A DNA stretch of 64,000 bases from positions 1 to 64,000 of the IMG/VR virus record IMGVR_UViG_3300029442_000001; one strand, written 5' to 3'. A program made the position numbers and the translations under genes. The stretch's first letter is position 1. The number at the start of each line of letters is the position of its first letter. Below, piece after piece: positions 19,864 to 38,936 of the stretch. This stretch comes from a virus. The notes under the pieces are model-generated. The model was given only the letters and a program-made list of their open reading frames with translations, was not told the origin of the DNA and made no database searches.

Positions 19864-20685
19864 ATGGCCGAATTTTTAAGTGAAGTTGGATTAGCGATGA
19901 CTAAGATTAAAACTTTAGAAGGACTATCTAAAGTTTTAACATTATCTGAACCTGTAACTTCAACTGAGTTCAATCAGCTAACAGATCGTTACGGAAAAGG
20001 CCAAGGAGATAATGCTAAACTAACCGCAGGAGATTGTTTAGGTAACACCAATTACGTAACAGTTCTGAATGATGTTATATCACTTATAATGGTCTTTCAA
20101 GGTGGAGCTACTATGAATGCAGTTCAATTAAAAGTACTATCACTTAAAACTGCTATACTTGCAAATTCTTATGCGCCTTTTGGATCGTGGCACGAATTGA
20201 TTATAGATTACAAAAATACAATTGACGCATTAGCTAAAACACTAAATGAAGAAACAATAGCACGTAAAAAAGATGGGCTGTGTCACCAATATAATTTATT
20301 AGCTGAATCACATAATACAAGTGCAAAGATTTATATTGATGCGCCTTTTTATCCAACAGCAATTAGTGATAAAAATCAAGCTTGTCCTGCTTTTTGTAAA
20401 GATTTACATTCAATTGGTGCCAACTCAGATAATTTTAATTCAGATATCATAATAGAGGAATGTGGGCAGCTTGAATTAACAACAGGTCAAGCTATTATAG
20501 CTGCTGAAAGAGAAGGAAAAAATATAAACATATTAAATGATATTGGTATTGTTACTGATTCATTTGCAAGTAACGGCAATGGCATTCAACCTAAAGAATC
20601 AGCACCAAAATTACCATCTGGTGGACGATGGTCACCACCAGTTGATAAATATTCTTCTTTGCCAACTGGATCATCTAGTTTCTAA
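19864..20685 (+). CDS. Putative virion protein
   Basis: 273 aa, coupled to the low-complexity gene by zero spacing. Mostly helical; contains ANSYAPFGSWHELIIDYKNTID and a Cys pair (ACPAFC), then a Pro/Ser-rich tail (LPSGGRWSPPVDKYSSLP). No domain recognised. Co-transcription with baseplate-like genes suggests a structural role. Confidence 0.55.
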   Translation: MAEFLSEVGLAMTKIKTLEGLSKVLTLSEPVTSTEFNQLTDRYGKGQGDNAKLTAGDCLGNTNYVTVLNDVISLIMVFQGGATMNAVQLKVLSLKTAILANSYAPFGSWHELIIDYKNTIDALAKTLNEETIARKKDGLCHQYNLLAESHNTSAKIYIDAPFYPTAISDKNQACPAFCKDLHSIGANSDNFNSDIIIEECGQLELTTGQAIIAAEREGKNINILNDIGIVTDSFASNGNGIQPKESAPKLPSGGRWSPPVDKYSSLPTGSSSF

Positions 20686-20691
20686 CATATT

Positions 20692-21318
20692 ATGATACCT
20701 AATAACAGAAAAGAGTTTAATAAATCCTGGTTAGTAGAAATGCCTGAAGGCATTGGCAATATTGAAATATTTGATATGATCCACTATAATATTAAAGATC
20801 AGATTCGTAATGGTGCTAAAGTGAATAATGTTACAAATCAACTTAGAAAAATTGTAGGATCACAAACAGCTTATTATTGGTTTGAAAATAATGGAGAAAT
20901 TATTCTTGGCGCTGAGTTCTCAATTAATTCACAAAACTATACAGTAAATGCAGTAGCTAAGTCACCAAACTGGCGTAAAAAAACACCATATGCTACCGAT
21001 TTATATAAAGCAGTATTAGATGATACAAACAAAAGTATTCGTATATTCAGAGATTATCAAATGAGTAATTCTGGATTAGATATGTGGAAAAAATTATTAG
21101 ATAGTGGTTGTCATATTAGTGTATATGATAGTAAAAATCCTGGAGTATCTTTTAAAGAAATACACGATACAATAGAACTTGAAAATTACTTTAAAGACGA
21201 TGATACTAATTTTCGTCGTTACCAATATGTATTAAGTGAAGGACAGGTTCATTTAGATGTAATTGGATTCTTTAATACCAGACGAATGAGAGAATTAAGT
21301 GGTATAAGTTTAATCTAA
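20692..21318 (+). CDS. Hypothetical phage protein
   Basis: 208 aa. Alternating strand/helix pattern: GAEFSINSQNYTVNAVAKSPNWRKKTPYATDLYKAVLDDTNKSIRIFRDYQMS and LWKKL-type helix. The layout is reminiscent of an acyltransferase-like fold, but no acetyl-CoA loop can be identified. Last plus-strand gene before a convergent minus-strand operon. Confidence 0.55.
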   Translation: MIPNNRKEFNKSWLVEMPEGIGNIEIFDMIHYNIKDQIRNGAKVNNVTNQLRKIVGSQTAYYWFENNGEIILGAEFSINSQNYTVNAVAKSPNWRKKTPYATDLYKAVLDDTNKSIRIFRDYQMSNSGLDMWKKLLDSGCHISVYDSKNPGVSFKEIHDTIELENYFKDDDTNFRRYQYVLSEGQVHLDVIGFFNTRRMRELSGISLI

Positions 21319-21345
21319 CGTTCGTATTTAAGTCCCAATTTGGAT

Positions 21346-21734
21346 TTAATATGCATATTTTAAACCTTTGAGTATCAAATAAGTTAACTGTTCAGGATCA
21401 ACATAAGTAGATCTAGAAATTTTAGTAAATGAATTTATTTCAACGCCTTCAAAATTTACACCACATAGATATGTTCCATATAAAATTGCTCCATTTAATG
21501 AAGCGCCAGATAGATTAACATTACCTAAATCAGCGAGACTTAAATCAACACCTGTTAAATTAGCACCACTTAAATTAGAATTCGATAAATTTGCATTTCT
21601 TAGAGAAGAATAGCTTAAATTGCATCCACGTAAATCTAAATCATTTAATTTATACACCAAGATAAATCTGAGTTACAAAGAGTTTCATCGTTGATTGTAT
21701 ATAATAATACTCCTCTAATAGATGTAATAAACAT
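21346..21734 (-). pseudogene. Pentapeptide-repeat gene, frameshifted
   Basis: Frame 1 from ATG 21734 reads MFITSIRGVLLYTINDET then LCNSDLSWCIN-stop. This is the family N-terminus, with the start overlapping the upstream stop (TAATG). A second frame resumes near 21660 with NDLDLRGCNLSYSSLRNANL and runs to the standard cap [15 protein letters not shown]. One missing base near 21650-21660 would join them. This is the only minus-strand member of the pentapeptide family here. Confidence 0.75.
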
Positions 21735-22234
21735 TATTGTCTTGTTAAAAGTTCAGTGAATCTAATTAATTTGAAATCATCATCAAACAATGTTCCATCA
21801 CACTGTAAACCATTATGCGTTCCGCTCCCATTTCCAAGATTAATTCCAGTATTTTTAAACATATTAAAACAACTAATACGGTGTTCACCTGAGTGTGTTA
21901 ATTTTAGTCGGATGTACCAACCCGGATAATTTCGAGGAACATCTTTTTTATATCCACCCCAATTAGTTTCTTTACCAATTGGTGCACTATGAGAATTAGA
22001 AACTTCGTCGGACCAAGTAAAGCTATAGAAATCAACTGAAATCGCACTCGGAAATTTTGAAGTGTCAATTTCTTTGTCTTTTTTAAAAGATTCATGATAC
22101 CAGCCATTTGCTAAAAAATAATTCCAATGTTCAATTATAAATTCAACTAATTCAACTCTTGATGCAACAGTATTTCGCATTTTCTCGAAAACTGGTTTAA
22201 CTACCATTGGGATTTCATCACATGTTAAAATCAT
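21734..22234 (-). CDS. Hypothetical early protein
   Basis: 166 aa. Trp/Tyr-rich central part (SVDFYSFTWSDEVSNSHSAPIGKETNWGGY) and RLKLTHSGEHRISCFNMF. No recognised domain. Follows the zinc-finger-like gene by 2 bp in a minus-strand operon driven from the promoter at 22764-22792. Confidence 0.6.
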   Translation of the reverse strand: MILTCDEIPMVVKPVFEKMRNTVASRVELVEFIIEHWNYFLANGWYHESFKKDKEIDTSKFPSAISVDFYSFTWSDEVSNSHSAPIGKETNWGGYKKDVPRNYPGWYIRLKLTHSGEHRISCFNMFKNTGINLGNGSGTHNGLQCDGTLFDDDFKLIRFTELLTRQ

Positions 22235-22236
22235 AA

Positions 22237-22452
22237 TTAGTCTTTTTCTCTTTTTGATTTACGTCCTATGTGGTAATATCCGCACCAAGGGCAAGTGTAA
22301 ATATTATAAGTTCGTCCAGGACGAATACACTCTAACGAATACGCTTGTTTTGTAGCAACCAATTGACTCACATATTTCAATTTGGTCAGACATTGATAAA
22401 ATTCAGTAAGCCGATTTTTGTACAAATCAACATCTTTTCTATCAACTGGCAT
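22237..22452 (-). CDS. Small zinc-finger-like protein
   Basis: 71 aa. The C-terminal YTCPWCGYYHIGRKSKRE holds one CxxC and a following His; with the upstream Cys (LEC) this could bind zinc. N-terminal helix is charged. A small nucleic-acid-binding or host-takeover protein is possible; not identified. Confidence 0.6.
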   Translation of the reverse strand: MPVDRKDVDLYKNRLTEFYQCLTKLKYVSQLVATKQAYSLECIRPGRTYNIYTCPWCGYYHIGRKSKREKD

Positions 22453-22460
22453 AATTTTAC

Positions 22461-22619
22461 CTACTGCTCGTATTTTTCAAGCCACCGGATACCATAAGTT
22501 TCTGCATCATTCTTTTCAATCCAATCTTCAAGTGCAGCTTCATCTTCGAACTTCTTTGTCCATCTAAGACAATTCATGCCCTTAATGCCGTATGCTTCAA
22601 TAGTATTTTTGCGTTTCAT
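22461..22619 (-). CDS. Small hypothetical protein
   Basis: 52 aa, MKRKNTIEAYGIKGMNCLRWTKKFE..., with ATGA overlap to the upstream microprotein and an 8-bp gap to the next gene. Acidic C-terminal helix. Unknown function; retained because start, stop and spacing all fit the operon. Confidence 0.6.
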   Translation of the reverse strand: MKRKNTIEAYGIKGMNCLRWTKKFEDEAALEDWIEKNDAETYGIRWLEKYEQ

Positions 22620-22735
22620 TTCGAGTCCATCCAATTTCCAAATTTTTCTAGAATTTTTTCGAACCCACCAGTAATCAATACCACTCCAGCACAGAATGCC
22701 AAAAAATACACAAGCGAAAGAAAGTCAGCTAACAT
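22616..22735 (-). CDS. Membrane microprotein
   Basis: 39 aa: MLADFLSLVYFLAFCAGVVL then a short amphipathic tail. One transmembrane helix. The strong Shine-Dalgarno (AAAAGGAGA on the minus strand at 22742-22750) and consensus promoter show that it is a real early gene. Confidence 0.65.
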   Translation of the reverse strand: MLADFLSLVYFLAFCAGVVLITGGFEKILEKFGNWMDSK

Positions 22736-22763
22736 TTTAAATCTCCTTTTCTAGTACTCTTTA

Positions 22764-22792
22764 AGTATAGCAAACATAAAAATCATTGTCAA
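22764..22792 (-). promoter_or_regulatory. Sigma70-type promoter, minus strand
   Basis: On the minus strand TTGACA (22787-22792), 17-bp spacer, extended -10 TGCTATACT-like (22764-22769) and the TTAAAGAGTACTAG block identical to that at 23223. Diverges from the 128-bp element and the promoter at 22924. Confidence 0.8.
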
Positions 22793-22800
22793 CGCCTATT

Positions 22801-22928
22801 CTAAGTCGTTTGTTTTCAGTGCTTAATTCAACACAAAACGTCGTATAACGCAGTTTTTAACTGGAGTTGGGGCTCTTATACCAGATATGCCCTAAGAATT
22901 GCTTAAATGACGTTTTATTTTGGTTGAC
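22801..22928 (+). ncRNA. 128-bp repeated structured element, copy 1
   Basis: Copy 2 is at 50592-50719 with only four substitutions and no indels. The ends GTCGTTT and AAATGAC pair. CTGG/CCAG and GGGC/GCCC interleave as an H-type pseudoknot (22861-22892). AAAAC...GTTTT encloses CGT-ATA-ACG. It runs into the -35 of the promoter at 22924. Could be an RNA element, a terminator-like structure or a DNA site; strand unproven. Confidence 0.6.
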
Positions 22929-22953
22929 TTCTTCTCAACCAAACTGCTATACT
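22924..22953 (+). promoter_or_regulatory. Sigma70-type promoter
   Basis: TTGACT at 22924-22929, 18-bp spacer, TATACT at 22948-22953. The ATG at 22960 is 6 nt after the -10, so the transcript would be leaderless. Confidence 0.75.
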
Positions 22954-22959
22954 TAAATT

Positions 22960-23202
22960 ATGCTTATTGAAGTTAAAACTGGTGTGTATGCATCTTTTGA
23001 ATATGAAAACCAAGTTATTTTTTATCTTGGCAATCCCGCAGGCCCAGAATATGAACGTGGGTATGATGGGTTTGATAAAATTATTGGTACATGGAATCCA
23101 GTGAATAAGACGGTGACTGTATACTTCAAAGTTGGCAGTATCGACTCAGAAACAATTGAAAATATCCCGACTTTTTTGGATGCAGTCCCGTTTATGATTT
23201 GA
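22960..23202 (+). CDS. Small hypothetical early protein
   Basis: 80 aa. Beta-strand pattern (VYASFEYENQVIFYLGNP, TVTVYFKVGSIDSETIENIPTFLDAVP). No domain recognised. First gene behind repeat copy 1; its stop overlaps the next promoter's -35 (TTGACA at 23199), so each small gene here has its own promoter. Confidence 0.65.
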   Translation: MLIEVKTGVYASFEYENQVIFYLGNPAGPEYERGYDGFDKIIGTWNPVNKTVTVYFKVGSIDSETIENIPTFLDAVPFMI

Positions 23203-23228
23203 CATTTGATTATCAAAACTGCTATACT
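23199..23228 (+). promoter_or_regulatory. Sigma70-type promoter
   Basis: TTGACA 23199-23204, 18-bp spacer, TATACT 23223-23228, then TTAAAGAGTACTAG and a GGAG ribosome-binding site before the ATG at 23257. Confidence 0.8.
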
Positions 23229-23256
23229 TAAAGAGTACTAGAAAAGGAGATTTAAA

Positions 23257-23424
23257 ATGGGCGATTGGCGTTATAGGCAATGGTTGGTTTCTTATACTAT
23301 TCCAGGACAATGTTTACAAAAGATGGTTGTGACAGCTGATGGCGTTAATACTGCAAGAGAGCTTGTCAAGGCAATGTTTGGTGGTAAGGTTATCATTGGA
23401 TATATTGAGGAAGTTAGGAATTGA
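23257..23424 (+). CDS. Small hypothetical early protein
   Basis: 55 aa, MGDWRYRQWLVSYTIPGQCLQ..., ending IIGYIEEVRN. AAAAGGAGA precedes the ATG at ideal spacing. Beta-alpha-beta pattern like other tiny early phage proteins; function unknown. The TGA lies within the next promoter's -35 hexamer. Confidence 0.65.
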   Translation: MGDWRYRQWLVSYTIPGQCLQKMVVTADGVNTARELVKAMFGGKVIIGYIEEVRN

Positions 23425-23449
23425 CATTTTGAATTCAAACTGCTATACT
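23421..23449 (+). promoter_or_regulatory. Sigma70-type promoter
   Basis: TTGACA 23421-23426, 17-bp spacer, extended -10 TGCTATACT ending 23449, then the TTAAAGAGTA block; CAGGAGA before the ATG at 23482. Confidence 0.8.
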
Positions 23450-23481
23450 TAAAGAGTAGAGAAATAAACAGGAGATTTAAA

Positions 23482-23802
23482 ATGTTTTTAGTTGGTGACA
23501 AAATGAATTACCGTTTTATTGGCTGGTGTCATGATCCAAAAGAAAATCACGATAAAGTATGGGCGGTGATTATTATCAACAATAAGTATGGCGATTGTAA
23601 AGTTGCAACCATTTGGGGACGACGTGGCAAAACATTACAATCAAAAATTATTGAAACTACGTCTTGGGATCTTGATACTTTAGTTAGATCAAAACAAAAG
23701 AAAGGCTACGAAAGTTATTCTAAAAGTCAACTAGATAATGTGTATCCAAATTTCGAACAGGATTTGGAAATGACAACTAGTTGGGCAATGTTGAAATCAT
23801 AA
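23482..23802 (+). CDS. WGR-like domain protein
   Basis: 106 aa. KVWAVIIINNKYGDCKVATIWGRRGKTLQSKI contains the W-G-R signature at about residues 56-58 with the preceding strand pattern of WGR domains, followed by a Lys-rich helix. WGR domains occur in PARPs, where they contact DNA ends, and in many stand-alone bacterial proteins. A second WGR-like gene follows and then DNA ligase, so a DNA-end role is plausible. Confidence 0.7.
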   Translation: MFLVGDKMNYRFIGWCHDPKENHDKVWAVIIINNKYGDCKVATIWGRRGKTLQSKIIETTSWDLDTLVRSKQKKGYESYSKSQLDNVYPNFEQDLEMTTSWAMLKS

Positions 23803-23803
23803 T

Positions 23804-23980
23804 ATGAAATACAAAATAGTAGTTTCATGTTATCGATATGTATTAGAACAGATGGTAAATGACCATATTAAAGAAGGTTGGATTCCAACTGGCGGAGTCT
23901 ATATTGAAGAATGCTCTACATCAGGTAGATATGGTCAAGCAATGATAAATATGCTGCATAATCAAAATGAAAATTTGTAA
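23804..23980 (+). CDS. DUF1737-like small protein
   Basis: 58 aa, MKYKIVVSCYRYVLEQMVNDHIKEGWIPTGGVYIEEC. The pattern 'YKIV...V...I.EGW.P.GGV' matches small DUF1737-type proteins found in phages and bacteria. Function unknown. Lies between the two WGR-like genes and overlaps the second by 14 nt. Confidence 0.65.
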   Translation: MKYKIVVSCYRYVLEQMVNDHIKEGWIPTGGVYIEECSTSGRYGQAMINMLHNQNENL

Positions 23981-24272
23981 TATATTAATTAGACATTCTA
24001 AAAAACGATCAAACTTTTGGGCAATAGTTGATTGCTCGGGTAACGATTATGGTTATAAAAGATATGTTTATGTTTGGGGGAGAGTTGGTCACGCCAGTAG
24101 ACATTTAGTGAAATTGAGTGACCTACTTTATAATAGAAAACTTCGTAGGGCCAAATATAATCATAATTATGATGATTTAAGTCCTAGCAATTCAACTTAT
24201 AATACAATAGTTGATGATATCGGAAAGTATATAACTATTAAAACATTAGAAGGAAAAATTAAATCTAAATGA
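23967..24272 (+). CDS. WGR-like domain protein
   Basis: 101 aa. NFWAIVDCSGNDYGYKRYVYVWGRVGHASRHLVKLSDL resembles the protein at 23482 (WGR at about residues 37-39), though the two differ greatly in sequence. Basic overall. The stop overlaps the DNA ligase start by ATGA, the strongest contextual hint that it works with DNA ends or the ligase. Confidence 0.65.
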   Translation: MKICNILIRHSKKRSNFWAIVDCSGNDYGYKRYVYVWGRVGHASRHLVKLSDLLYNRKLRRAKYNHNYDDLSPSNSTYNTIVDDIGKYITIKTLEGKIKSK

Positions 24273-25582
24273 TGAAACCATGGGAAGTAATTGAACAGTT
24301 GGACGCTACGCCATCGCGTACAAATAAAGAAGCAATTTTATTGAGTGAAGCCAAAGCTAACAATGATGAATTATTTGCTGGATTTATGCTGGCATACAAT
24401 TCTTTTTTAACATTTGGATTAAAGCAAATTCCAGAAGCTACAGTTGATGGTCCGGGTATTGATTGGTTTGATTTTTTGAATCTAACTGACCAACTTATTG
24501 ATCGAAAATTAACTGGAAATGCTGCAAGAGATGCAGTAGAAGTATTGATGAAGAAGTCAACTGTCAGGGCTTGGAACAAGTGGTTTCGTCCAATTCTAAT
24601 CCGTGATATGCGTTGCAGTACATCAGATTCTACAGTTAATAAGGTTGCTAAGAAATCCAATAAGCCCGAATATGCTATTCCACTATTTGAAGTTCAATTA
24701 GCATTTGATGGCGCAAATCACGCAGAAAAGATTGTTGGAAAGAAGATTATTCAATCTAAGCTTGATGGTGTTCGTCTTATCACTATTGTGTATCCAACTG
24801 GTGTTGTTGAACAGTTTACCAGGAACGGAAAAGTGATGGATAATTTTCCACATATCAGAGATCAATTTGCTTCAGTAGCAGATAAAATTGAGGAACCTTG
24901 GGTATTTGATGGTGAAATTATGTCTTCATCATTCCAAGATTTGATGAAGCAAACCCAACGTAAATCAAATATTCAAACAAAAGATTCAATTTTGAATTTG
25001 TTTGATTGTTTAAGTTTGGTAGATTTTAAGAAAGGCATTTGCACAGATTCGCAAGTAGCAAGAGCAGCATGTTTGGATTATTGGTACAATGAATGTAAAG
25101 ATAAACTGCCAAATGTTAATGTATTGGGATATGAGATTGTCGACCTTAATACTGACATTGGTCAAAAGCGATTTAACGAAATTAATAATTTGGCTATTGC
25201 TGCTGGGTTTGAAGGAATTCTAATTAAGGATCCCAATGCACCATATGAATGCAAACGATCTGTTGCTTGGCTTAAACGAAAGCCGTTTATTACAGTAGAT
25301 TTGACTGTAGTTGGTATTGAGGAAGGTACTGGTAAGTACGAAAAGATGATGGGTGCATTAGTTTGTGAAGGTACCGATCAAAGACGTCTAATCCAAGTAA
25401 ATGTTGGTAGCGGTTTTACTGACGAAGAACGAGATATTATTTGGAATAATCAAAGTAATGTGTTAAATCAAATTGTAGAAATAAAAGCAGACGTAATAAC
25501 AAAAAATCAAAATGGAACTTATAGTTTGCGCTTTCCACGATTTGAACGTTGGCGCGGTTTTGAGCCAGGAGAAAAGATGTGA
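24269..25582 (+). CDS. ATP-dependent DNA ligase
   Basis: 437 aa, in the T4 gp30 size class. Nucleotidyltransferase motif I KLDGVR (Lys about 164 is the AMP-accepting residue), motif III WVFDGEIM near 211, motif IV/V FEGILIKDPNAPYECKRS...WLKRK near 314-338, then an OB-fold domain. An N-terminal helical DNA-binding region precedes motif I. It seals nicks using ATP in replication and repair. Confidence 0.93.
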   Translation: MMKPWEVIEQLDATPSRTNKEAILLSEAKANNDELFAGFMLAYNSFLTFGLKQIPEATVDGPGIDWFDFLNLTDQLIDRKLTGNAARDAVEVLMKKSTVRAWNKWFRPILIRDMRCSTSDSTVNKVAKKSNKPEYAIPLFEVQLAFDGANHAEKIVGKKIIQSKLDGVRLITIVYPTGVVEQFTRNGKVMDNFPHIRDQFASVADKIEEPWVFDGEIMSSSFQDLMKQTQRKSNIQTKDSILNLFDCLSLVDFKKGICTDSQVARAACLDYWYNECKDKLPNVNVLGYEIVDLNTDIGQKRFNEINNLAIAAGFEGILIKDPNAPYECKRSVAWLKRKPFITVDLTVVGIEEGTGKYEKMMGALVCEGTDQRRLIQVNVGSGFTDEERDIIWNNQSNVLNQIVEIKADVITKNQNGTYSLRFPRFERWRGFEPGEKM

Positions 25583-25773
25583 GCGTTAAAGATGGTCCAT
25601 GGGATGCAAAGTTTACAGCGTCCTTGCTATTAAGTAATTTTGCTGAACAATTTACTCCAGAAATTAAACATTATACAATCGAACAAGGTAATTTGATACA
25701 TTTCTATGCAGATAAAATTGCAAAAGAATTGTGCGAAACACCTGGTAAGTATAAGTATACAGAAAGAAAATAG
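25579..25773 (+). CDS. Small hypothetical protein
   Basis: 64 aa with a GTG start overlapping the ligase stop (GTGA) and GGAG upstream. Contains FTASLLLSNFAEQFTPEIKHYTIEQG; no domain recognised. Part of the ligase operon. Confidence 0.6.
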   Translation: MSVKDGPWDAKFTASLLLSNFAEQFTPEIKHYTIEQGNLIHFYADKIAKELCETPGKYKYTERK

Positions 25774-25774
25774 T

Positions 25775-25993
25775 ATGTTTGAACAATTAATACAGGAAGG
25801 ATATTATATCATGGAAGTACCAAAGTTAGCACAAGAAGTTTTTAATGTATTTGGAGTAGGAGAAAATTCCAATGGTCCATTGGAAGCTGTCCGACTAGAG
25901 ATTATTGGCCGTAACTGGCTTAATTTTTGGGCATTGTCTCAAGAAGAGTACGAATTCATTAAGTTTCATAATAATTATGTAAATCAGTTCTAA
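25775..25993 (+). CDS. Small hypothetical protein
   Basis: 72 aa from the ATG at 25775, 1 bp after the preceding stop. MFEQLIQEGYYIMEVPKLAQEVFNVFGVG then an acidic helix ending HNNYVNQF. Not recognised. Last gene of the ligase operon before a late unit. Confidence 0.6.
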   Translation: MFEQLIQEGYYIMEVPKLAQEVFNVFGVGENSNGPLEAVRLEIIGRNWLNFWALSQEEYEFIKFHNNYVNQF

Positions 25994-26003
25994 AAAGATA
26001 TTT

Positions 26004-26056
26004 GCGATCCTCAGTGTGATTTCAAACTATTGATAAATAATAGTAAAGAGGATCGC
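26004..26056 (+). promoter_or_regulatory. Hairpin that can mask the RBS of the fibre gene
   Basis: GCGATCCTC (26004-26012) is perfectly complementary to GAGGATCGC (26048-26056), which contains the GAGG ribosome-binding site of the gene at 26059. The late promoter lies between the arms, so late transcripts (start about 26045) lack the upstream arm and should be translated, while read-through from the ligase operon would be masked. T4 genes e and soc use this scheme. Confidence 0.6.
26032..26039 (+). promoter_or_regulatory. T4-like late promoter GATAAATA
   Basis: Inside the loop of the 26004-26056 inverted repeat; 19 nt before the ATG at 26059 with GAGG between. Confidence 0.65.
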
Positions 26057-26058
26057 GA

Positions 26059-27579
26059 ATGTCTTATATACTCAATAAAACAGATGGTGAAGTTTTAATA
26101 ACTTTAGCGGATGGTACGATAGATACTTCTACATCATTATCATTGATTGGTAGAAATGTTTCATCTTATGGCGAACGACAAAATGAAAATTTCATAAAAT
26201 TACTAGAAAATTTTGCTAATTCGGCAGTGCCGCCAGGAGCAGATTATCTATCTGGACAAGTATGGTACGATACTACACTTGGAATAAAGCAATTAAAAGT
26301 TTATAACGGATCCAAGTGGCTAGGCATTGGATCAATCACAAAAGCTGCACCAGAACCTACCTTACCTATTCGCCCATTGGATCCAAATTCTGCATATTAT
26401 GATAATGGTGATATGTGGTATAATACAACTACTAGACAATTATATATAAATGATAATTTTATATGGAAATTGATCGGACCATTAGCTCCAGTAGGAATAA
26501 ATGGCGTTGAAATTATTGCTGAAGTAATAACTGATATCTTTGCTGTTGATCACGTTGTGTTAAGCTTTTATATTAATACCAGTAGATTAGCAATGTTTAG
26601 TCCAGATGAAGTATTTACTCCAGCAGCACCAGGACAATCTGGTTATGCAACTATTAGTAGTGGATTAAATTTTAATACTAATTTTGGTAATATAACCATA
26701 AGTGGATTAGCAAGTCTTGGTGTTCTAGGTACAGTAACAGCAGGCAATTTATCTACAAGTGGAACATTACTTGTTACAGGTAACGCAACAGTTGGTAATA
26801 TTTCTTCTGGCGCTGGTTCATTTAGTGGTGCAATAACTGGCTCAACTACAATTAATATTACTGGAAATGCAACTGTTGGAAATTTAACATCTAATGCTAA
26901 AATAACTTCTTCAACCCTAATTGTTACAGGAAATGCAACTGTTGGTAATATTTCAACTGGAATTGGTCTCTTTTCTGGAGCAATAACTGGGTCAACAACA
27001 ATTAATATTAGTGGAGTTGCAACTGTTGGAAGTTTAGTTTCAGGTGCAGCAGCATTTGGTGGTGCAATAACTGGCGCAACAACACTTGGAATTACAGGAA
27101 ACGCAACTGTTGGAAATTTAACTGCTTCATCAATAGTTGGATCAATAATAACAGCAACCCAACCACAAATAACAACAGTTGGAACGTTAAATGGATTAAA
27201 TGTAACGGGCGGAATAGTTGCAAGTCAATCAATTAGATCAACAACATTAGTAACAAATACAGCAGGTGGCACAGTATCATTAAGTGCAACCACAACAAAT
27301 CATCAATTAAATATTACTGGTGCTGTTTCTTTATTGACAATCACAGATTTAACTAATCCTGGTCAAACTATGAGAATTATGTTAATTGGTACAGAGAATG
27401 GTGTAACATTTGATTCTTCAAATAATATATATTGGCCAAATAATGCAGTTCCAAATTTTACTAACGGAAGTAGAGGAATAACAATTGTGACATTAACTAA
27501 ACCATCGTCTTCAGGATATCCTATAACTGGTGCACGTACTTCTAATGATATTCTTCTAGCAACTTATGTGAGCTATTAA
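26059..27579 (+). CDS. Long tail-fibre protein
   Basis: 506 aa. Residues 1-150 have the N-terminal module seen in T4-like marine phage fibres (LNKTDGEVLITLADGTIDTSTSL, then GRNVSSYGERQNENFIKLLENFAN, then two GQVWYDTT / GDMWYNTT units). Residues about 215-370 are beta-helix-like repeats (VTGNATVGNIS, ITGNATVGNLT). The C-terminus is a small tip domain. Late-expressed with a conditional ribosome-binding site; followed 2 bp later by the giant adhesin. Confidence 0.8.
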   Translation: MSYILNKTDGEVLITLADGTIDTSTSLSLIGRNVSSYGERQNENFIKLLENFANSAVPPGADYLSGQVWYDTTLGIKQLKVYNGSKWLGIGSITKAAPEPTLPIRPLDPNSAYYDNGDMWYNTTTRQLYINDNFIWKLIGPLAPVGINGVEIIAEVITDIFAVDHVVLSFYINTSRLAMFSPDEVFTPAAPGQSGYATISSGLNFNTNFGNITISGLASLGVLGTVTAGNLSTSGTLLVTGNATVGNISSGAGSFSGAITGSTTINITGNATVGNLTSNAKITSSTLIVTGNATVGNISTGIGLFSGAITGSTTINISGVATVGSLVSGAAAFGGAITGATTLGITGNATVGNLTASSIVGSIITATQPQITTVGTLNGLNVTGGIVASQSIRSTTLVTNTAGGTVSLSATTTNHQLNITGAVSLLTITDLTNPGQTMRIMLIGTENGVTFDSSNNIYWPNNAVPNFTNGSRGITIVTLTKPSSSGYPITGARTSNDILLATYVSY

Positions 27580-27581
27580 TT

Positions 27582-30500
27582 ATGCCAAATCAAGGTGATA
27601 CTATTGAAATTCAATGTTGCAGTGGAGATTCACTGATATTAATATATGCTTATGGTCCTTTTAACGATTTTTTACAAGAGGGATCATACTCTGGAGTTAC
27701 CGCTCCATACAGGAGTGGATATTACGGGTATGGTTGGATTATAGCTAGCGGGTCTTGTCCTGAAGGTGACACTGGAGAAAATTGTAATGCTGGTCCAACT
27801 GCACCAACAATAAGTATTTTTCCTAGTCAATTATATTTTGACGCATATCGAACAGGTATAATCCATGTTATACAATCTCCAACAAATTATGATTGGACTG
27901 GTACAGTTTCAGGCGGTGCTCCTTGGCTACATATTGCACAAAAATATCATGATCCAAATCCAAATAATGTCAATGCAGATTATGTATATTTAAGTGTAGA
28001 TATTAATACAACGCAATCTATTAGAACTGCAACAATTTCTGTTGGAGATAATATATGTACAATTACACAAGCTGCCGCTCCTCCTCCACCAGCCCTTTCA
28101 GTAACATTAAATATAAATTCAGATCTAGCTGGTGCTGAAGTTTCGTTGTCTGGTGATGTTTTAGTAACTCCAGACACAGGTTTAGCTAGTTGGGATGTAC
28201 AAGTTGTTTGCGATAATACTAGTTGGGTATCTTATACTATTGTAGGAAATACATTTACTTGGCACGTACAACCTAATACAGATACTTCTTCTAGAAACGT
28301 ATCATTTTATATCGGAAATAATGCTCAATATGCAAATGGAGGAACTAAAACATTTGTCTTAGAACAAGCAGGTTTGATAACTGACCCTAATATCGGTGAT
28401 ACTTTAACAATACCATGTTGCGATCTTGTTAACGATTTAATTGTAACTTGGGCTTATGATACAACTCCTAAATTAAAAATTGGAGATAATCCAGTAATAC
28501 ATCATAATCCAATTTATAGTTACAACGGTTTATCTACAGGTTGGTCAATTACTACGCCTTGTCCTGTTATAGGTGATATTGGTAATTGCGATCAAAACAA
28601 TCCAAATTACAATACTGTAACCGCATTAAATGCGACAAGTTTGTCATTTGAAGCAGCAGGAAGAAACAATTTTCCAATACTTGTTAGCACATTTCCTCAG
28701 ACTTACTCAGACTGGAAAATAGTTTATACTGAAACTTGGCTAAGATTTAGTAATAAAGAAGTTGTAGTAAATGGATATCAAATATTTCTTACTGTTGATG
28801 CTAATACTACATACTATCCTAGATCAGCTATGGTTCAAATTGGTGAACAAACATTAACAATATCTCAAGTTGGACAAATTAAACCTCCTACACCTAATGT
28901 AACTGTGAGTCCTCAAATAGGTAATATTCCAGCATATGGTGGAACCATAAGTTTAAGTATTACTCCAACTGTAGTTGGTCATTCGTGGTATATAGACGTA
29001 ATAGATAAAGATTGGTTCTCTGTAAGTCCAAAGAATGGCCTTGGAAATACAACTGAAACAGTTACTATAACTGTTCTCCCAAGTGATGGAAATCCAAGAA
29101 GAGGAGAAATATTAATCAACACTCCCTTTGTTGATGAATATGGTAGAAACGTTTACAACCAAGTTGATTTCAAAGTATATCAGGAAGAAGGCGCTGCATC
29201 TCCAACTACAATGCCTCACAATGATGGTGATATATTAACTATTCCTTGTTGTCAAGCTGGTTACAATATGACTTTTGTATGGAGACAAGGTCCTTGGCAA
29301 ATGTTACCAGGCGGGCAACTTATAAATACAAATGGTTATTTACAAATAAATGATCCTGTATATCAAGTAACAGATGCATTGTTAGCAGGTTCATATCCTA
29401 CAGTGGGACCATTTGATGGTCCTTGGTTAACAAACAACAGCCCTGGTGCAATAAATTTTCATCAAACTACTCAAACAGTTCCTAGTACTTCTTCAACAGT
29501 TGGTGAACGTGTGCAAGTATGGCAAATGGTAAGTGGCGTCCTTACATTAGTTACAACTACATTAGCTGTCCCTCCAGTAGCACCTGAAGGTGGATCAGAT
29601 CCTATGGGATCTTGTTGGGGATGGTTTTTACAAAATGAATGCCCAGTTGGTTCTGATAAAGGATTAGACTGTGGTGGAATCCCAACCACAGATTTCAATT
29701 TTATGCCAGTTACATTTATCAATGATAGAACTGGCCCACCAACTTATGCTGAATCTGGAGGAGTATTATACACTTTAGTTGGAACAAAAACTCTTGTAAA
29801 ATCGTTAACAGCATATGTATTAAATGGTAATTCACAACTAGTACCTAGACCAGCTACACAAATTGATTTGGGTAGCTCGGCACCAACATTTTTCTCACAT
29901 GTACTTGTTAAACCAAAATTTGTTACTAAACAAAACGTGTTATATATTGAATGGACAATAATTAATAAAACATATATTCCATACATAGAATGGTATAATA
30001 TGCCAGCACCAATAACTGTTCATATTCCTTATAATACTGATACTCTTATTGATTTATCGAGCCAAGTACTTGATACAGGTAATCCAGATTCGTCAAGCGA
30101 TACATATTTTTCAGTATATAATGGCGGAACATTTTTACAACATGGACATTTTATATCTTGGAATGGATTAGGTGGGGTATATAGACCAGACAATGGTTAT
30201 ACAGGATTAGATAATTTCTGGTATTATTGGAAAGTAAATGCTGACAAGGTTGGGGCCGTAAATATTATCATTGATCCCCCAACAGTGACAGATTTACAAG
30301 CAGCTACTTATACAGCAACTATTCCTTATCCAGATCTTTCTGTTTCAATTGATTTATTAACTTTAGTTAGTGCGTCAGTTCAAGGACAGCGAGTATCGAA
30401 TCGAACTGGTAGTTTTAGTATAGCTGATATTAATAATATTTCATCAGCAACAGCAACTTTAGTTGGTTCGGTTTTAACATATACTCTTACAGGTCCAAGA

Positions 30501-33155
30501 AATAGTTATACAACAGCGTTGAGTGATGTTGTTAGATATACTTTCGTAGATACTAGTAATGCATTAACTCCCGCGTCTAATAATATAACTATTTTAGTTG
30601 CACCATATATTCCACCACCACCAACTCCAACTATTAATTCTTTTACAGCAACACCACAGAATGTTTGTACTGGTGCAACCACTACTTTATCTTGGTCAAC
30701 TGTTGATGCTACTCAATGTAGTATAGATGGTCTAGCGGCGATTGCAACTCAAGGTTCTATTTCAACAGTTGGTCCAATTTCAGTTCCAACAACTTATACA
30801 TTACATGCTTATAATCAATATGGATCTACTACAGCAACAGTTGTAGTAACACCAAATATATCAAACCCGGTTGCCACAGACTTAACAGTTACAACAAATT
30901 TTTGGGATGGTATATCTTCTCCTAGACCAATAGCACATATTTTTCCAATCTATACTGGAAGTGTTACTGGAGCTTCAATTGTAACTCCTCCAACAAAAGG
31001 TTATTTAGTTGGTACTTTAAATATAGATTCACCAATTGCATATTATGTTAATAGTTATGCAACTGGAACTGATACATTTACATATAAAGTTTCTGGTCCG
31101 TGTGGAGATAGCGCACCAGCTAATATTACTGTAACGATTACTCCAGGAACAGTTCCAATTATAAGTGCAGGCAATATAACATGTAATTATGGTACTATTG
31201 GATCAGTAGGTGGAACAGTTTCAGCAGCGATTGCAAGTTCAGTATATATAAGTTCTTTCCCAACTCATGGTGCTGTTACCTTTGATAATACTGGTTTACC
31301 ATCAAACACATTTATTGTAAATTATACACCATATTTTGGTTTTATTGGGAATGATACATTTTCTATAGTTGCAGCAGGAATAGCAGGTGAAAGTAATATA
31401 GTAATTATTCCAGTAACTGTAATAGCACCTCCTTGCTCAGTACCTATTAGTACAAGTACTTCAACTCCATATAATACACCAGTACCTATTGTGTTCACCT
31501 ACACAGGTTATGCAAGTGGAGTTGAAATTGTAAGTGGACCAGCAGCATTTCAAGGAGTATTAACTGGACCAGTAGTAGGCAATTTATACTTATGGAACTT
31601 TACTCCAGCTGCAAGTGGTTATTCAGGTGTAGTTGGTATTTCTTTTAGAACATATAATGCAGATCATTCAATGCTATGCAGTTCAGTTGGAACTGTATCA
31701 GTTACAGTTGGTGCAGCACCTGTTATTAGTAGACCAACTCATGTATTATTTGATTCAGCTGCTGGTCAAGGATCTGCAGTTACATATCAAACTGAATCTT
31801 GGACAATGACAGGTAATTATGGAAGTTACGTTGGTGATTACACAGTAAAAGTAGAATGTTTAAATGATAGTTATACCGGTGGAAATATTGATGCGTTAAC
31901 TGCGGCACACGTAATTGGTATTAGACGAACTAGAGGAATAGTAGTTTCTAATTCTTCAGGTAATACGCTAACAGATGTACAAGATGGTGATATTATTGAA
32001 GTAAGAGTTATAACTGCAACACAAATAGCAAATATAAATAGAACACTTAATTTTAAAGTTTCGGTTTCAGGACGAACAGATACCTATATTGGAATGGATC
32101 CTTTATATCTAGGATACAGTGATTTTTCAAATTTCAATATTATTACAAATTCAGGTGACATTGTACCAGATGCATTTGACTTCTTTGATCAATCCAATTT
32201 AGAAATTAGCACAGCATTAAACACAAATACAGTAACAATTACTGGTGTTGATGTTAACTTATATGTACCAATTAGAGTTACACCAAGTGCAAATATTATT
32301 GTAAATGATGTACAGTTTGGTGATAGTACAACTGTTCAAAAATTTGATGTAGTAAAGATTAGAGCACTAACAAGTGGTTCTTATAATACAGATATAGTGT
32401 ATACTGTATTGATGGGAACAACTACTCCTGGTGGAAACGCGTCAGCGGTTGTTGATACTTTTACTTATTCAACAAGACCACCACATGGAACTTGTATTAA
32501 AGATATGGATTTTGGTATAAAAACAGGTTTGGAATTAAATACAAACACTTTAACAAATTCAGTTACTTGGATTAGTCCAGATTTGCCTAGTCTAGGTTTT
32601 AGTGTAAATAATGGCGCAAGTATTTGGATAAATGGTTCAAATCTAGGTGTTAGTAGTGCAACAGTAAACAGTGGTGCAACTATAGCATTTGAAGGATTAA
32701 CTTCTCCAGTATATAATACACCAGTTAAATATACAGTTTCAGTAAGTCCTAATAATTTAACTTGTGGTGTTAATCCAGTTACTGGTAATAGTAGAACTGG
32801 TGAGTTTGTTTTTGTTACAAGACCAAAAAGAACAACTGTAACATTAGGTGTATTCACAGATATTATTAATCAGCAACTTTCAACAACAGTTACAAGTAAC
32901 ACAATTACTATTGATGGAAATATTGATGGAACAACTGCTATCACTTTAACAGGTGGTGGACAACTTAGTATAAACGGAAATTTGAGCGGAACTAGTAATG
33001 TAGTAAATAATAATGATGAAGTTGCAATTGTAGCAACTACAAATATTGATTATTATACAACCAATACATATTCGGTACATTGTGGTGCAATAACATCGAA
33101 CTGGAATGTACGAACTAAGAGCAACGACGATTTATTATTACTTTCAGTGGACTAA
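27582..33155 (+). CDS. Giant multidomain adhesin/tail protein with BACON and Ig-like domains
   Basis: 1857 aa, no signal peptide. Three modules begin with a paired-Cys strand (EIQCCSGDSLILIYAYG at about 8, LTIPCCDLVNDLIVTWAYD at about 275, LTIPCCQAGYNMTFVWRQG at about 550), each followed further on by another Cys pair. Between them lie BACON-type domains (LSFEAAGRNNFPILVS...ISQVG). From about 900 come Ig/cadherin-like repeats ending in T-[IV]-x-[IV]-x-P linkers; one reads INSFTATPQNVCTGATTTLSWS. Probably a carbohydrate-binding fibre determining host contact. Confidence 0.8.
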   Translation: MPNQGDTIEIQCCSGDSLILIYAYGPFNDFLQEGSYSGVTAPYRSGYYGYGWIIASGSCPEGDTGENCNAGPTAPTISIFPSQLYFDAYRTGIIHVIQSPTNYDWTGTVSGGAPWLHIAQKYHDPNPNNVNADYVYLSVDINTTQSIRTATISVGDNICTITQAAAPPPPALSVTLNINSDLAGAEVSLSGDVLVTPDTGLASWDVQVVCDNTSWVSYTIVGNTFTWHVQPNTDTSSRNVSFYIGNNAQYANGGTKTFVLEQAGLITDPNIGDTLTIPCCDLVNDLIVTWAYDTTPKLKIGDNPVIHHNPIYSYNGLSTGWSITTPCPVIGDIGNCDQNNPNYNTVTALNATSLSFEAAGRNNFPILVSTFPQTYSDWKIVYTETWLRFSNKEVVVNGYQIFLTVDANTTYYPRSAMVQIGEQTLTISQVGQIKPPTPNVTVSPQIGNIPAYGGTISLSITPTVVGHSWYIDVIDKDWFSVSPKNGLGNTTETVTITVLPSDGNPRRGEILINTPFVDEYGRNVYNQVDFKVYQEEGAASPTTMPHNDGDILTIPCCQAGYNMTFVWRQGPWQMLPGGQLINTNGYLQINDPVYQVTDALLAGSYPTVGPFDGPWLTNNSPGAINFHQTTQTVPSTSSTVGERVQVWQMVSGVLTLVTTTLAVPPVAPEGGSDPMGSCWGWFLQNECPVGSDKGLDCGGIPTTDFNFMPVTFINDRTGPPTYAESGGVLYTLVGTKTLVKSLTAYVLNGNSQLVPRPATQIDLGSSAPTFFSHVLVKPKFVTKQNVLYIEWTIINKTYIPYIEWYNMPAPITVHIPYNTDTLIDLSSQVLDTGNPDSSSDTYFSVYNGGTFLQHGHFISWNGLGGVYRPDNGYTGLDNFWYYWKVNADKVGAVNIIIDPPTVTDLQAATYTATIPYPDLSVSIDLLTLVSASVQGQRVSNRTGSFSIADINNISSATATLVGSVLTYTLTGPRNSYTTALSDVVRYTFVDTSNALTPASNNITILVAPYIPPPPTPTINSFTATPQNVCTGATTTLSWSTVDATQCSIDGLAAIATQGSISTVGPISVPTTYTLHAYNQYGSTTATVVVTPNISNPVATDLTVTTNFWDGISSPRPIAHIFPIYTGSVTGASIVTPPTKGYLVGTLNIDSPIAYYVNSYATGTDTFTYKVSGPCGDSAPANITVTITPGTVPIISAGNITCNYGTIGSVGGTVSAAIASSVYISSFPTHGAVTFDNTGLPSNTFIVNYTPYFGFIGNDTFSIVAAGIAGESNIVIIPVTVIAPPCSVPISTSTSTPYNTPVPIVFTYTGYASGVEIVSGPAAFQGVLTGPVVGNLYLWNFTPAASGYSGVVGISFRTYNADHSMLCSSVGTVSVTVGAAPVISRPTHVLFDSAAGQGSAVTYQTESWTMTGNYGSYVGDYTVKVECLNDSYTGGNIDALTAAHVIGIRRTRGIVVSNSSGNTLTDVQDGDIIEVRVITATQIANINRTLNFKVSVSGRTDTYIGMDPLYLGYSDFSNFNIITNSGDIVPDAFDFFDQSNLEISTALNTNTVTITGVDVNLYVPIRVTPSANIIVNDVQFGDSTTVQKFDVVKIRALTSGSYNTDIVYTVLMGTTTPGGNASAVVDTFTYSTRPPHGTCIKDMDFGIKTGLELNTNTLTNSVTWISPDLPSLGFSVNNGASIWINGSNLGVSSATVNSGATIAFEGLTSPVYNTPVKYTVSVSPNNLTCGVNPVTGNSRTGEFVFVTRPKRTTVTLGVFTDIINQQLSTTVTSNTITIDGNIDGTTAITLTGGGQLSINGNLSGTSNVVNNNDEVAIVATTNIDYYTTNTYSVHCGAITSNWNVRTKSNDDLLLLSVD

Positions 33156-33245
33156 ATGGAAACTTTGCTTTTATTAACATTAGTTGCAATTTTTTGTTGG
33201 CATTATCTTACAAATCCGATACGTTTTGAATTTAAGGAGTTATGA
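33156..33245 (+). CDS. Membrane microprotein
   Basis: 29 aa, METLLLLTLVAIFCWHYLTN..., one hydrophobic helix, ATG directly after the adhesin stop and TGA directly before the next ATG. AAGGAG at its 3' end serves the next gene. May be a coupling peptide or a membrane partner of the protein at 33246. Confidence 0.55.
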   Translation: METLLLLTLVAIFCWHYLTNPIRFEFKEL

Positions 33246-34634
33246 ATGTTAGACTATTCTGCTTTGCTAATTGCATTATTGATTAGTACAGTAAGTGCCT
33301 ATTATAGTATTAGTGGATTAATGGCCATATTTTCGACCGCTCAAATACCTATTATTATTATGGGTGGTGCGTTAGAATTAGGTAAAGTTATTACCACAAT
33401 GTGGGTTAGAAAAAATTGGAGTATTCTTGGTTATGCTAGTAAAAGTTATCTTGTAGCATGTATCATAATATTAATGCTTGTCACAAGTTTAGGTACTTTT
33501 GGATTTTTGTCAAAGAGCCATTTGGATCAAGGTGTACCATCAGCTGATGCACAAGATCAAGTTTCTTTATTTGATGAAAAAATTAAAAATGAAAGAGAAA
33601 CAATAACATTAAATCGTAACTTGATGGCACAAATGGATAATGCAGTAACAGAAATATTAGGTAGAAGCAAAGATCAAAATGGAGCAGAACGCGCAACAGT
33701 AATTAGACGAACTCAAAGTAATGATAGAACGAGATTACAAAAAGAAAATGATTTATCTCAGCAGAAGATTCAACAGTTGCAAGCTGATAGAGCTCCAATT
33801 GCATCTAAGGTAAGAAAAATTGAAGCTGAAGTTGGTCCTATAAAATATGTAGCTGCAATGATTTATGGTGATAATCCGAGCATTGATTTGTTAGAGCGAG
33901 CAGTTAGGTGGATTATCATTATTATTATAATTGTATTTGATCCACTTGCATTAACTTTATTATTAGCTGTGAGCAAAAAAATTGAGCTTTCAAAAATTCA
34001 AAAAGAAGATACTGTCCAAACAGAAGTAATCAAAGAAGTTCTGGTAGAAGTAATCAAAGAAGTGGAAGTAATTAAAGAAGTAGCAGGTCCAGAACGAATT
34101 GTAGAAGTAATCAAAGAAGTGGAAGTAATTAAAGAAGTAGTAGGTCCAGAACGAATTGTAGAAGTAATTAAAGAAGTGGAAGTGGTAGGTCCAGAACGAA
34201 TTGTAGAAGTAATTAAAGAAGTGGAAGTGGTAGGTCCAGAACGAATTGTAGAAGTAATCAAAGAAGTGGAAGTGGTAGGTCCAGAACGAATTGTAGAAGT
34301 AATCAAAGAAGTTTCAGCAGAAGTAAGTCAAGAAGAAAATCCGTTGTTAGTTAAATTGCGTGAATTAGCAGGTCATGTAGATTTGTTAGATACTGAAAGT
34401 TCTTACAATTCTAAATTTGGAACTGCATTTCCTAGAAATCCTAGACGTGGAGATACATTTTTAAGAGTAGACACAGACCCAAATACATTATATAGATTCA
34501 ATGGTCAATCTTGGTTTTCAGTTGCTGATTTGAATGCTACTAGATTATTACAATTGATTTTGTCGGGTGATTTAACATTAGAAGATTTAACCCCAGTTCA
34601 AGTTCAAATGGTTAAAAGTATCATGAAAAAATAA
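33246..34634 (+). CDS. Membrane coiled-coil protein with 15-residue repeats
   Basis: 462 aa. Three N-terminal hydrophobic helices (residues about 5-30, 33-50, 68-90), a long coiled coil (about 100-200), and one strongly hydrophobic helix with an Ile run (about 220-245). Then come near-identical 15-residue units VEVIKEVEVVGPERI (about 260-355), and a C-terminal NPRRGDTFLRVDTDPNTLYRFNGQSWF module like those in fibre proteins. Similar membrane proteins occur in T4-like marine phages with unknown role. It may link virion or tail to membrane, or act in lysis timing. Confidence 0.7.
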   Translation: MLDYSALLIALLISTVSAYYSISGLMAIFSTAQIPIIIMGGALELGKVITTMWVRKNWSILGYASKSYLVACIIILMLVTSLGTFGFLSKSHLDQGVPSADAQDQVSLFDEKIKNERETITLNRNLMAQMDNAVTEILGRSKDQNGAERATVIRRTQSNDRTRLQKENDLSQQKIQQLQADRAPIASKVRKIEAEVGPIKYVAAMIYGDNPSIDLLERAVRWIIIIIIIVFDPLALTLLLAVSKKIELSKIQKEDTVQTEVIKEVLVEVIKEVEVIKEVAGPERIVEVIKEVEVIKEVVGPERIVEVIKEVEVVGPERIVEVIKEVEVVGPERIVEVIKEVEVVGPERIVEVIKEVSAEVSQEENPLLVKLRELAGHVDLLDTESSYNSKFGTAFPRNPRRGDTFLRVDTDPNTLYRFNGQSWFSVADLNATRLLQLILSGDLTLEDLTPVQVQMVKSIMKK

Positions 34635-34674
34635 AATATTGTGCGAAGATAGTAGCTAAAGGTAAATATATGTA

Positions 34675-35916
34675 ATGCGGAAAGAAACAACAATGCCTAA
34701 TAAATGCAGCTTTTGCAATAAAACTCGCGAAGAAGCTACCAAGTTGATCATTAGCGGTGCTACCGCAGCAATTTGCGATGAGTGCGTTGAATTGTGCTCA
34801 AATTTATTAATAAATCAGCAAAATGTAAATATTAAAAAAGACAAAAAACTTGCAAAACACACTAACCCAATTAGAATAAAACAGTATCTGGACCAATTTG
34901 TTATTGGTCAAGAAGATGCTAAGATTGCAATTAGTGTTGGGGTTGCAAATCATTATAAGAGATTATTTTATACAAGTGCAATTGCAATTGAGAAAAGTAA
35001 TATATTATTACATGGACCAACAGGAACAGGGAAAACGCTATTAGCCAAAACAATTGCAGATTTCTTAGATGTTCCTTTTATTATTGCTAATGCAACTGGA
35101 CTTACCGAAGCTGGATATGTTGGCGATGATGTTGAAAGTATTCTAAGTAGATTATTATTAGCAGCAGATGGTGATATCGAAAAAGCACAACACGGCATTA
35201 TCTTTTTAGATGAAATTGATAAAATTGGTAAAAAAAACGACGGATCAACTGCTAACAGAGACATAACTGGAGAAGGTGTACAACAAGCATTATTGAAAAT
35301 AATTGAGGGCGCTGTTATTTCAGTACCAACAGATGGCGGCAAAAAACATGCTGGTTCATCTGTTGTCGATATTGACACAACAGGAATATTATTTATTGCT
35401 AGTGGTTCATTTGTTGGTTTATCAGATGTTATAACAAGACGCAATAAAGAAAACTCAATTGGTTTTGGATCTACAAAAGTAAATAAAGTCCAGTCTTCAA
35501 CAGCATCAGTAGACGATTTAATTAAGTTTGGTATGATTCCAGAATTTATGGGTAGGTTCCCAGTTATTGTTTATACTAATGTGTTAACAACACCCGAATT
35601 GATAAAAGTATTAACTAGTACTAAAAATAACTTAATTAGTCAATATAAATTTTATTTTACAATTGATGGAATTGAAATTTGCTTTACACAAGAAGCATTA
35701 GAAAGTATTGCTGGAAAAGCAAGCATATTGAAAACAGGCGCAAGGGCACTAAAAAATATTTTAGAAAATAGTTTGATGCCACATTTATTTGCATTACCAA
35801 AATATAAAGAACAAAAAGTAGTGGAAATTACATTTACCGCAGGTGTTTTCAACACAAATGCATCACCAGAATTTTCATATAAATCAAAAGCTAAACAAGT
35901 TTTAACAGCAGGTTAA
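34675..35916 (+). CDS. clpX: ClpX-like AAA+ unfoldase
   Basis: 413 aa, like bacterial ClpX. N-terminal C4 zinc finger (CSFCNKTREE...CDECVELC), Walker A GPTGTGKT near 113, GYVGDDVES pore-1 region near 145, Walker B IIFLDEIDKIGKK near 175, and sensor/GAR region with TGARALKNILE near 360. It unfolds tagged substrates and feeds ClpP; a ClpP-like gene is at 60959. ATG 34675 or, equally plausible, ATG 34693 (MPNKCSFC). GGTAAATA upstream is a near-match to the late octamer. Confidence 0.93.
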   Translation: MRKETTMPNKCSFCNKTREEATKLIISGATAAICDECVELCSNLLINQQNVNIKKDKKLAKHTNPIRIKQYLDQFVIGQEDAKIAISVGVANHYKRLFYTSAIAIEKSNILLHGPTGTGKTLLAKTIADFLDVPFIIANATGLTEAGYVGDDVESILSRLLLAADGDIEKAQHGIIFLDEIDKIGKKNDGSTANRDITGEGVQQALLKIIEGAVISVPTDGGKKHAGSSVVDIDTTGILFIASGSFVGLSDVITRRNKENSIGFGSTKVNKVQSSTASVDDLIKFGMIPEFMGRFPVIVYTNVLTTPELIKVLTSTKNNLISQYKFYFTIDGIEICFTQEALESIAGKASILKTGARALKNILENSLMPHLFALPKYKEQKVVEITFTAGVFNTNASPEFSYKSKAKQVLTAG

Positions 35917-35943
35917 TTTTCAAAGGTAAGGTACTAAATCAAA

Positions 35944-36192
35944 ATGAAAGAAAGAGATGGAATTGTTGTTGATGTTCTAAATGGAGATCTAGAGCGTGCA
36001 TTAAAGAAGCTCAAGAAAAAAGTCAATAACGAAGGGATTATGCAGATCCTTAAAGATAAAGAAGGTTTTATTAAACCAAGCGAAATGAAACGACGTGATA
36101 GAGCAAGATCTATTAGCAAGGCTAAGAAACAAGCCAGACTAGATAATTCAGATTTTTACACTCAAGAATATACAGAAAAAACAAAAAATTAA
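35944..36192 (+). CDS. rpsU: Ribosomal protein bS21 homologue
   Basis: 82 aa, slightly longer than bacterial bS21. IVVDVLNGDLERALKKLKKKVNNEGIM and KDKEGFIKPSEMKRRDRARS align with the family almost end to end, followed by an extra tail (FYTQEYTEKTKN). bS21 sits by the anti-Shine-Dalgarno on the 30S platform; phage copies are known in aquatic phages and may bias host ribosomes toward phage mRNAs. Lies between clpX and hsp20. Confidence 0.9.
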   Translation: MKERDGIVVDVLNGDLERALKKLKKKVNNEGIMQILKDKEGFIKPSEMKRRDRARSISKAKKQARLDNSDFYTQEYTEKTKN

Positions 36193-36226
36193 TTTTACCA
36201 AAAAGTTAAAATTTTATATTAAATTG

Positions 36227-36235
36227 TGTTATAAT
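36227..36235 (+). promoter_or_regulatory. Extended -10 promoter for hsp20
   Basis: TGTTATAAT at 36227-36235 is an extended -10; no good -35 is visible. The 60-nt leader ends with AAGGAG before the ATG at 36300. Confidence 0.5.
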
Positions 36236-36299
36236 AAATACAGTAAGGTGCTCATTATGAGGCCTTACAATTAAATACTTGCTTAAGGAGAAGTTATTT

Positions 36300-36734: not shown

Positions 36735-36743
36735 TATAATTAG

Positions 36744-36768
36744 TTAAGGGGATAACTTCCCCCTTTAA
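36744..36768 (+). terminator. Hairpin after hsp20
   Basis: TTAAGGGG (36744-36751) pairs with CCCCCTTTAA (36759-36768) apart from one extra base. GC-rich stem without a long T-run, directly before the clpS leader; terminator or attenuator. Confidence 0.5.
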
Positions 36769-36780
36769 CAACAATAAAAT

Positions 36781-37086: not shown

Positions 37087-37131
37087 TCCTTTGTTATACT
37101 ACCTGGTAAATAGTTATAAAGGAAATAAATA

Positions 37132-38587: not shown

Positions 38588-38590
38588 TAG

Positions 38591-38619: not shown

Positions 38620-38649
38620 TAAATAGTAAGTAAAAGAGGAAATAATAAT

Positions 38650-38910: not shown

Positions 38911-38936
38911 TTATATTATAATTAGTTTATTAGATG

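Follow-up and report, generated by a model that had tools for sequence, protein, structure and literature searches.

A dispersed dyad-symmetric element at gene ends and early-type promoters of a phage, a candidate protein-bound boundary cassette

The phage DNA analyzed here (the window: 64,000 nucleotides, positions 1 to 64,000 of IMG/VR record IMGVR_UViG_3300029442_000001) carries two copies of an element that proves to belong to a dispersed family, with ten copies in the genome of the same or a nearly identical phage. Its members are built of conserved boxes at nearly fixed spacing, with a dyad axis common to arms and center; they adjoin early-type promoters and often begin with the stop codon of the preceding gene, and at one locus a gene has been gained or lost exactly at the left edge of the element. 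Judging from these sequence comparisons, we hold the chances to be about even that the element is a DNA-level, protein-bound boundary and promoter-control cassette. Of the alternatives raised by a first-pass annotation of this DNA, “a DNA site” is the best fit.

The two window copies, 22801-22928 and 50592-50719, agree at 124 of 128 positions without an indel, as had been noted, and differ at positions 27, 30, 78, and 108. Each copy does run into a promoter -35 at its end (TTGACT in the first, TTGACA in the second), with TATACT following after 18 nt, and the similarity continues through the -10 to give 157 nt at 94% identity. The natural left edge is a TAA at 22802/50593, position 22801 being a C common to both copies. 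Their longest common exact run is 47 nt, as against a longest exact repeat of 15-19 nt in each of 15 Markov-simulated windows, which excludes chance. The features of the two copies are as follows.

22802 to 22819, plus strand: 5' box TAAGTCGTTTGTTTTCAG of copy 1, conserved in 11 of 13 copies and always 33 bp before the core start
22835 to 22916, plus strand: 82-bp dyad-symmetric core of copy 1, in register about an axis between 22875 and 22876
22835 to 22852, plus strand: left arm AAAACGTCGTATAACGCA of copy 1, mean pairwise identity 0.87 among copies
22867 to 22884, plus strand: center TTGGGGCTCTTATACCAG of copy 1, conserved in sequence and inverted in copy 152258
22899 to 22916, plus strand: right arm TTGCTTAAATGACGTTTT of copy 1, mean pairwise identity 0.86
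22924 to 22953, plus strand: early-type promoter of copy 1, TTGACT-18-TATACT
22764 to 22792, minus strand: divergent promoter to the left of copy 1, TTGACA-17-TATACT
50593 to 50610, plus strand: 5' box of copy 2, its TAA closing the pentapeptide-repeat reading frame that lies upstream
50626 to 50707, plus strand: 82-bp core of copy 2 (arms 50626-50643 and 50690-50707, center 50658-50675)
50715 to 50744, plus strand: early-type promoter of copy 2, TTGACA-18-TATACT

The description of the element as two-copy proved too narrow. Sequence searches recovered further copies within the window's own 171.7-kb record, and the 242-kb IMG/VR record 3300022555_000003, whose phage is identical to that of the window or nearly so (coordinates shifted by +69,552 from those of the window), carries ten: 43074+, 50788+, 51403+, 92353+ (copy 1 of the window), 120144+ (copy 2), 137715-, 150617-, 152258-, 155856+, and 231083+. 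Three more distinct copies lie on fragments of related phages (G005:385, G005:14601, and G006:3252), so that all family comparisons below rest on 13 copies. These three are orthologs by locus of 150617, 137715, and 43074, respectively, in relatives diverged enough that the flanking proteins are mostly ~40-84% identical. The copies themselves are 65-78% identical to their partners, with the identity concentrated in the boxes, which argues that the element is kept in place and is not merely spreading. Beyond these phages, searches of INPHARED (phages) and PLSDB (plasmids) found no relatives of the element, and pattern searches of GTDB (prokaryotes) gave zero or chance matches. It is also absent from 21 distant-phage records, a weak test because most have one protein in common with this phage at 23-30% identity. 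An empty-site comparison with a 61% relative, G007, found no other gene in common within the parts read. One structural protein of this phage has weak matches, mainly in cyanophages.

In 11 of the 13 copies the element opens with a 5' box, TAAGTCnTTTGTTTTCAA, followed by 15-16 variable bases and a dyad-symmetric core; copies 50788 and 51403 lack the box, which in all 11 others starts exactly 33 bp before the core. The core comprises inverted half-sites, AAAACGYCGTWTAA, flanking TTGGGGc..aTGTACCAg, and reads in order: left arm AAAACGYCGTATAAYGCA, 14 variable bases, center TTGGGGc.aaTGTACCAg, ~14 variable bases, and right arm TTGCTTAAACGACGTTTT. Eleven copies have a core of 82 bp and two a core of 81 bp, and a single axis serves arms and center in register. 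Mean pairwise identity is 0.86-0.89 in the box and arms, 0.68 in the center, and 0.44-0.60 in the spacers, where the three variable segments have taken 125 or more substitutions and two 1-base indels. Near-invariant spacing despite nearly random spacers suggests that the spacing itself is selected, as it would be in a protein-DNA complex. Shared ancestry may account for part of the scarcity of indels, and if indels are assumed to arise at 5-10% per substitution, the expectation is only ~6-12, against the two observed. On the promoter side, TTTTRTTTT is conserved. We also considered an inverted GAAAACAAAG near some other promoters and in the two core-only copies; this is largely coding (ENKE) and not a separate motif.

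The association with promoters extends throughout the family. A sigma70-like TTGAC..TATACT promoter lies to the right of the element at a nearly fixed distance in 12 copies, the gap being 10 bp shorter, about one helical turn, in copy 51403; the thirteenth has its promoter on the left, so that all 13 adjoin one on at least one side. Three copies have a promoter on the element's other side. Eleven have a gene end on one side and, on the other, a promoter that points the same way; 92353 and 231083 lie between divergent promoters, and 155856, whose promoter is on the other side, lies between two minus-strand genes. Many promoters of the same early type have no element, which indicates that it is not needed for promoter activity. 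Promoter-leader units have likewise been copied without it, as seen in a promoter and ribosome-binding leader repeated in inverted orientation at 22733-22785 and 23207-23259 (53 nt, 89%). Other observations on these promoters are short inverted repeats around the -35 of many of them (TTTGG..CCAAA, TTTGA..TCAAA; e.g., 22924-22947, 23199-23222, and 46699-46722), a possible operator, and start codons only 6-9 nt past the -10 hexamer (22948-22962 and 50739-50756), so that these early mRNAs may have little or no leader. Outside the window the same phage carries six tRNA genes (Glu, Ala, Met, Leu, and two Ser; L092:2387-12068), with an early promoter directly after a tRNA-Ser, and within it 40704-40923 consists of two tandem 110-nt copies that are 98% identical.

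At the left edge of the element, its first TAA is the stop codon of the upstream gene in 43074, 150617, 152258, G005:385, and G006:3252. Copy 2 had the same arrangement before a nonsense TGA arose at 50518-50520 in the pentapeptide-repeat gene 50050-50595: the frame is open beyond it to the TAA at 50593, and this continuing frame encodes the C-terminus of the paralogs. Genes upstream of the element are often of this pentapeptide-repeat type. A comparison of one orthologous pair, G001 and G006, captures an exchange at this edge. The element's TAA closes a 698-aa gene in G006. The G001 ortholog of that gene (74% identical) ends in TGA, and a pentapeptide-repeat gene of ~141 aa starts one base past that TGA and itself ends at the element's TAA. 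Thus, a gene has been gained or lost exactly at the left edge while the element was retained. At L094:7486-10176 a reversed copy of the element stands between an AAA ATPase gene and a following DUF2201 metallopeptidase/VWA-like gene.

Two copies depart from the family plan. Copy 152258 (J152258) has two right-type arms and an inverted center (reverse score 35.1, forward 7.7, shuffle maximum 10.4), and copy G006:3252 has two left-type arms. Template switching at a quasi-palindrome, most simply during replication, would be expected to homogenize arms and invert a center in this way. Arm homogenization and spacer inversion are the described products of template switching at inverted repeats in yeast genes, and the same two derived forms are seen here (PMC8604942). 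This is a mutational process acting on the element rather than its function, and these copies offer clean natural examples of it in phage DNA. That the center is kept in either orientation favors a DNA site in which the orientation of the center is not essential.

The first-pass annotation was right that the element is real, repeated, and linked to early-type promoters; its predicted H-type pseudoknot and closing helix are not supported. The strings in question (CTGG/CCAG, GGGC/GCCC, and GTCGTTT/AAAYGAC) are indeed present and can pair in both window copies, but do so inconsistently in the others. Across the 13 copies the interleaved helices are paired in 36.5% (CTGG/CCAG) and 75% (GGGC/GCCC) of cells, no measure for either beats shuffles, and no proposed RNA helix shows covariation. 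The closing helix reaches 83.5% pairing through the sequence conservation of its two strands; it is broken in five copies at a variable position, again with no measure above shuffles, and the right arm AAACGACGTTTT pairs with the left-arm AAAACGYCGT and not with the 5' GTCGTTT. The inner segments of one copy pair with each other no better than with those from other copies (p = 0.32), and Rfam covariance models gave no match at the gathering score over the window and none at E <= 1 for copy 2. As one copy moreover carries the reverse complement of the center, a structured small RNA or 3'-end RNA is largely refuted. What remains on the RNA side is a simple arm hairpin, paired in 90% of cells without covariation, with a C-A mismatch recurring in four copies. 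Such a hairpin brings in the main rival to the protein-bound cassette, an intrinsic terminator fused to the early promoter, that is, a promoter early stem-loop (PeSL) in the strict sense, in which the upstream RNA would fold AAAACGUCGU...ACGACGUUUU and be released at the UUUUAUUUU tract immediately ahead of the -35. The layout of A-tract, stem, and T-tract, with its conserved TTTTRTTTT, speaks for this, as does the placement of most copies between a gene end and a same-direction promoter; a terminator would likewise suit the T-rich tract TTTTATTTT and the location between tandem genes, which to that extent count against the cassette. Also in its favor, ordinary terminators elsewhere are at chance level: over the two scanned stretches of the window, 20000-39999 and 44001-64000, intrinsic-terminator-like sites do not exceed shuffles (10 versus 8.0 and 11 versus 7.3), even at the convergent gene ends 21318/21346. 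Yet the stem would close a fixed, poorly structured stretch of ~46 nt, a slow-folding design; it neither covaries nor avoids the mismatch; termination requires neither a fixed loop length nor a conserved center; the two copies between divergent promoters have nothing to terminate; and a terminator is missing ahead of most other early promoters. We therefore regard the terminator as possible but rather doubtful.

Explanations centered on the movement or copying of the DNA fare less well. Dispersed copies, the close identity of the 157-bp unit of element and promoter in two unrelated contexts, and the gene exchange at the left edge would all suit a gene-moving recombination site or mobile repeat, whether attC-like, IS200/REP-like, or some other mobile cassette. 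Against this, the 242-kb record has no match to the tyrosine recombinase, serine resolvase, or Y1 transposase families, no target duplication is obvious, and three copies occupy orthologous loci in diverged phages, making such a role improbable. In particular, integron attC sites combine RYYYAAC/GTTRRRY boxes with a tyrosine integrase, whereas the arms read GTATAAC and GCTTAAAC and PF00589 has no match in that record; an IS200/REP-type hairpin element likewise finds no PF01797 (Y1 transposase) match there, with a transposase acting in trans being possible. Large dyad symmetry beside promoters is common at phage origins, and the homogenized arms indicate that replication meets the element as a hairpin. 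A replication origin or replication-protein loading site is nevertheless very unlikely, given ten copies on both strands that follow the direction of local transcription and are associated with gene ends and early-type promoters.

Lack of helix covariation, near-fixed spacing, an invertible center, and orthologous retention all count in favor of the DNA-level cassette. Under this proposal, the 5' box and the dyad core would probably be the site of a phage or host protein binding as a dimer or larger oligomer, with a constant interval between these boxes and the downstream -35 of an early promoter that would be read by a host-type sigma70 polymerase. The cassette would mark the end of one gene and the start of the next early transcription unit, and it may insulate or control the adjoining promoter; we infer the binding, the transcriptional effect, and the direction of that effect alike. 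Its arms and center have at times been homogenized or inverted, most simply via template switching in replication. A more specific version, which we put forward tentatively, is a phage-specific nucleoprotein boundary in which a protein seated on four regularly spaced boxes (the 5' box plus left arm, center, and right arm, the latter three sharing a dyad axis) might set the timing of the early promoter, with the left edge serving as both stop codon and standard gene-exchange junction. The adjacent pentapeptide genes and the footprint-sized module also invite the speculation that the element is a gyrase site. In large phages, which reshuffle their small early genes fast, a standard module providing stop codon, boundary, and promoter would be one way for a new arrival to gain proper boundaries and timing, and the dyad with its fixed spacing points to a putative DNA-binding regulator.

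Several repeat families of phages provide a frame for these observations. The PeSL cassettes of T4-type phages are reportedly the subject of primary studies by Arbiol in 2010 and Comeau in 2014. They are joined by a related motif in the haloarchaeal virus HGTV-1 (PMC4503421, PMC3950731). PeSLs share with our element the plan of a dispersed intergenic module that combines an inverted repeat with an early promoter at gene-swap junctions. Here we find an early sigma70-type promoter adjoining the inverted repeat (right in 12 of 13 copies, left in the thirteenth) and dispersed copies at gene-exchange junctions (ten copies, with the pentapeptide gene present in G001 and absent in G006); the layout would also be compatible with a stem-loop acting as a terminator. 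Set against PeSLs, our element is much larger (82-bp core plus 5' box), has nearly fixed internal spacing and a conserved center on the dyad, lacks covariation, and numbers only ~10 copies per genome; the likeness is one of layout. Cluster O mycobacteriophages also carry many copies of a dyad-symmetric DNA repeat, but these 17-bp repeats are short, exact, often inside genes, and not tied to promoters (PMC4351075). The extended start-associated sequences (ESAS) of Cluster K mycobacteriophages have 17-bp half-sites with variable spacers of 4-13 bp and lie beside a 13-bp SAS at the translation start (PMC3203893). Our element, with its long and fixed spacers in an 82-bp core and its link to a promoter rather than a translation start, falls outside that definition; like ESAS, it is an imperfect inverted repeat that recurs in front of some, but not all, small phage genes and stays at the same gene in relatives (PMC3203893). 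By analogy, then, the element appears similar in layout to both the PeSLs and the ESAS repeats.
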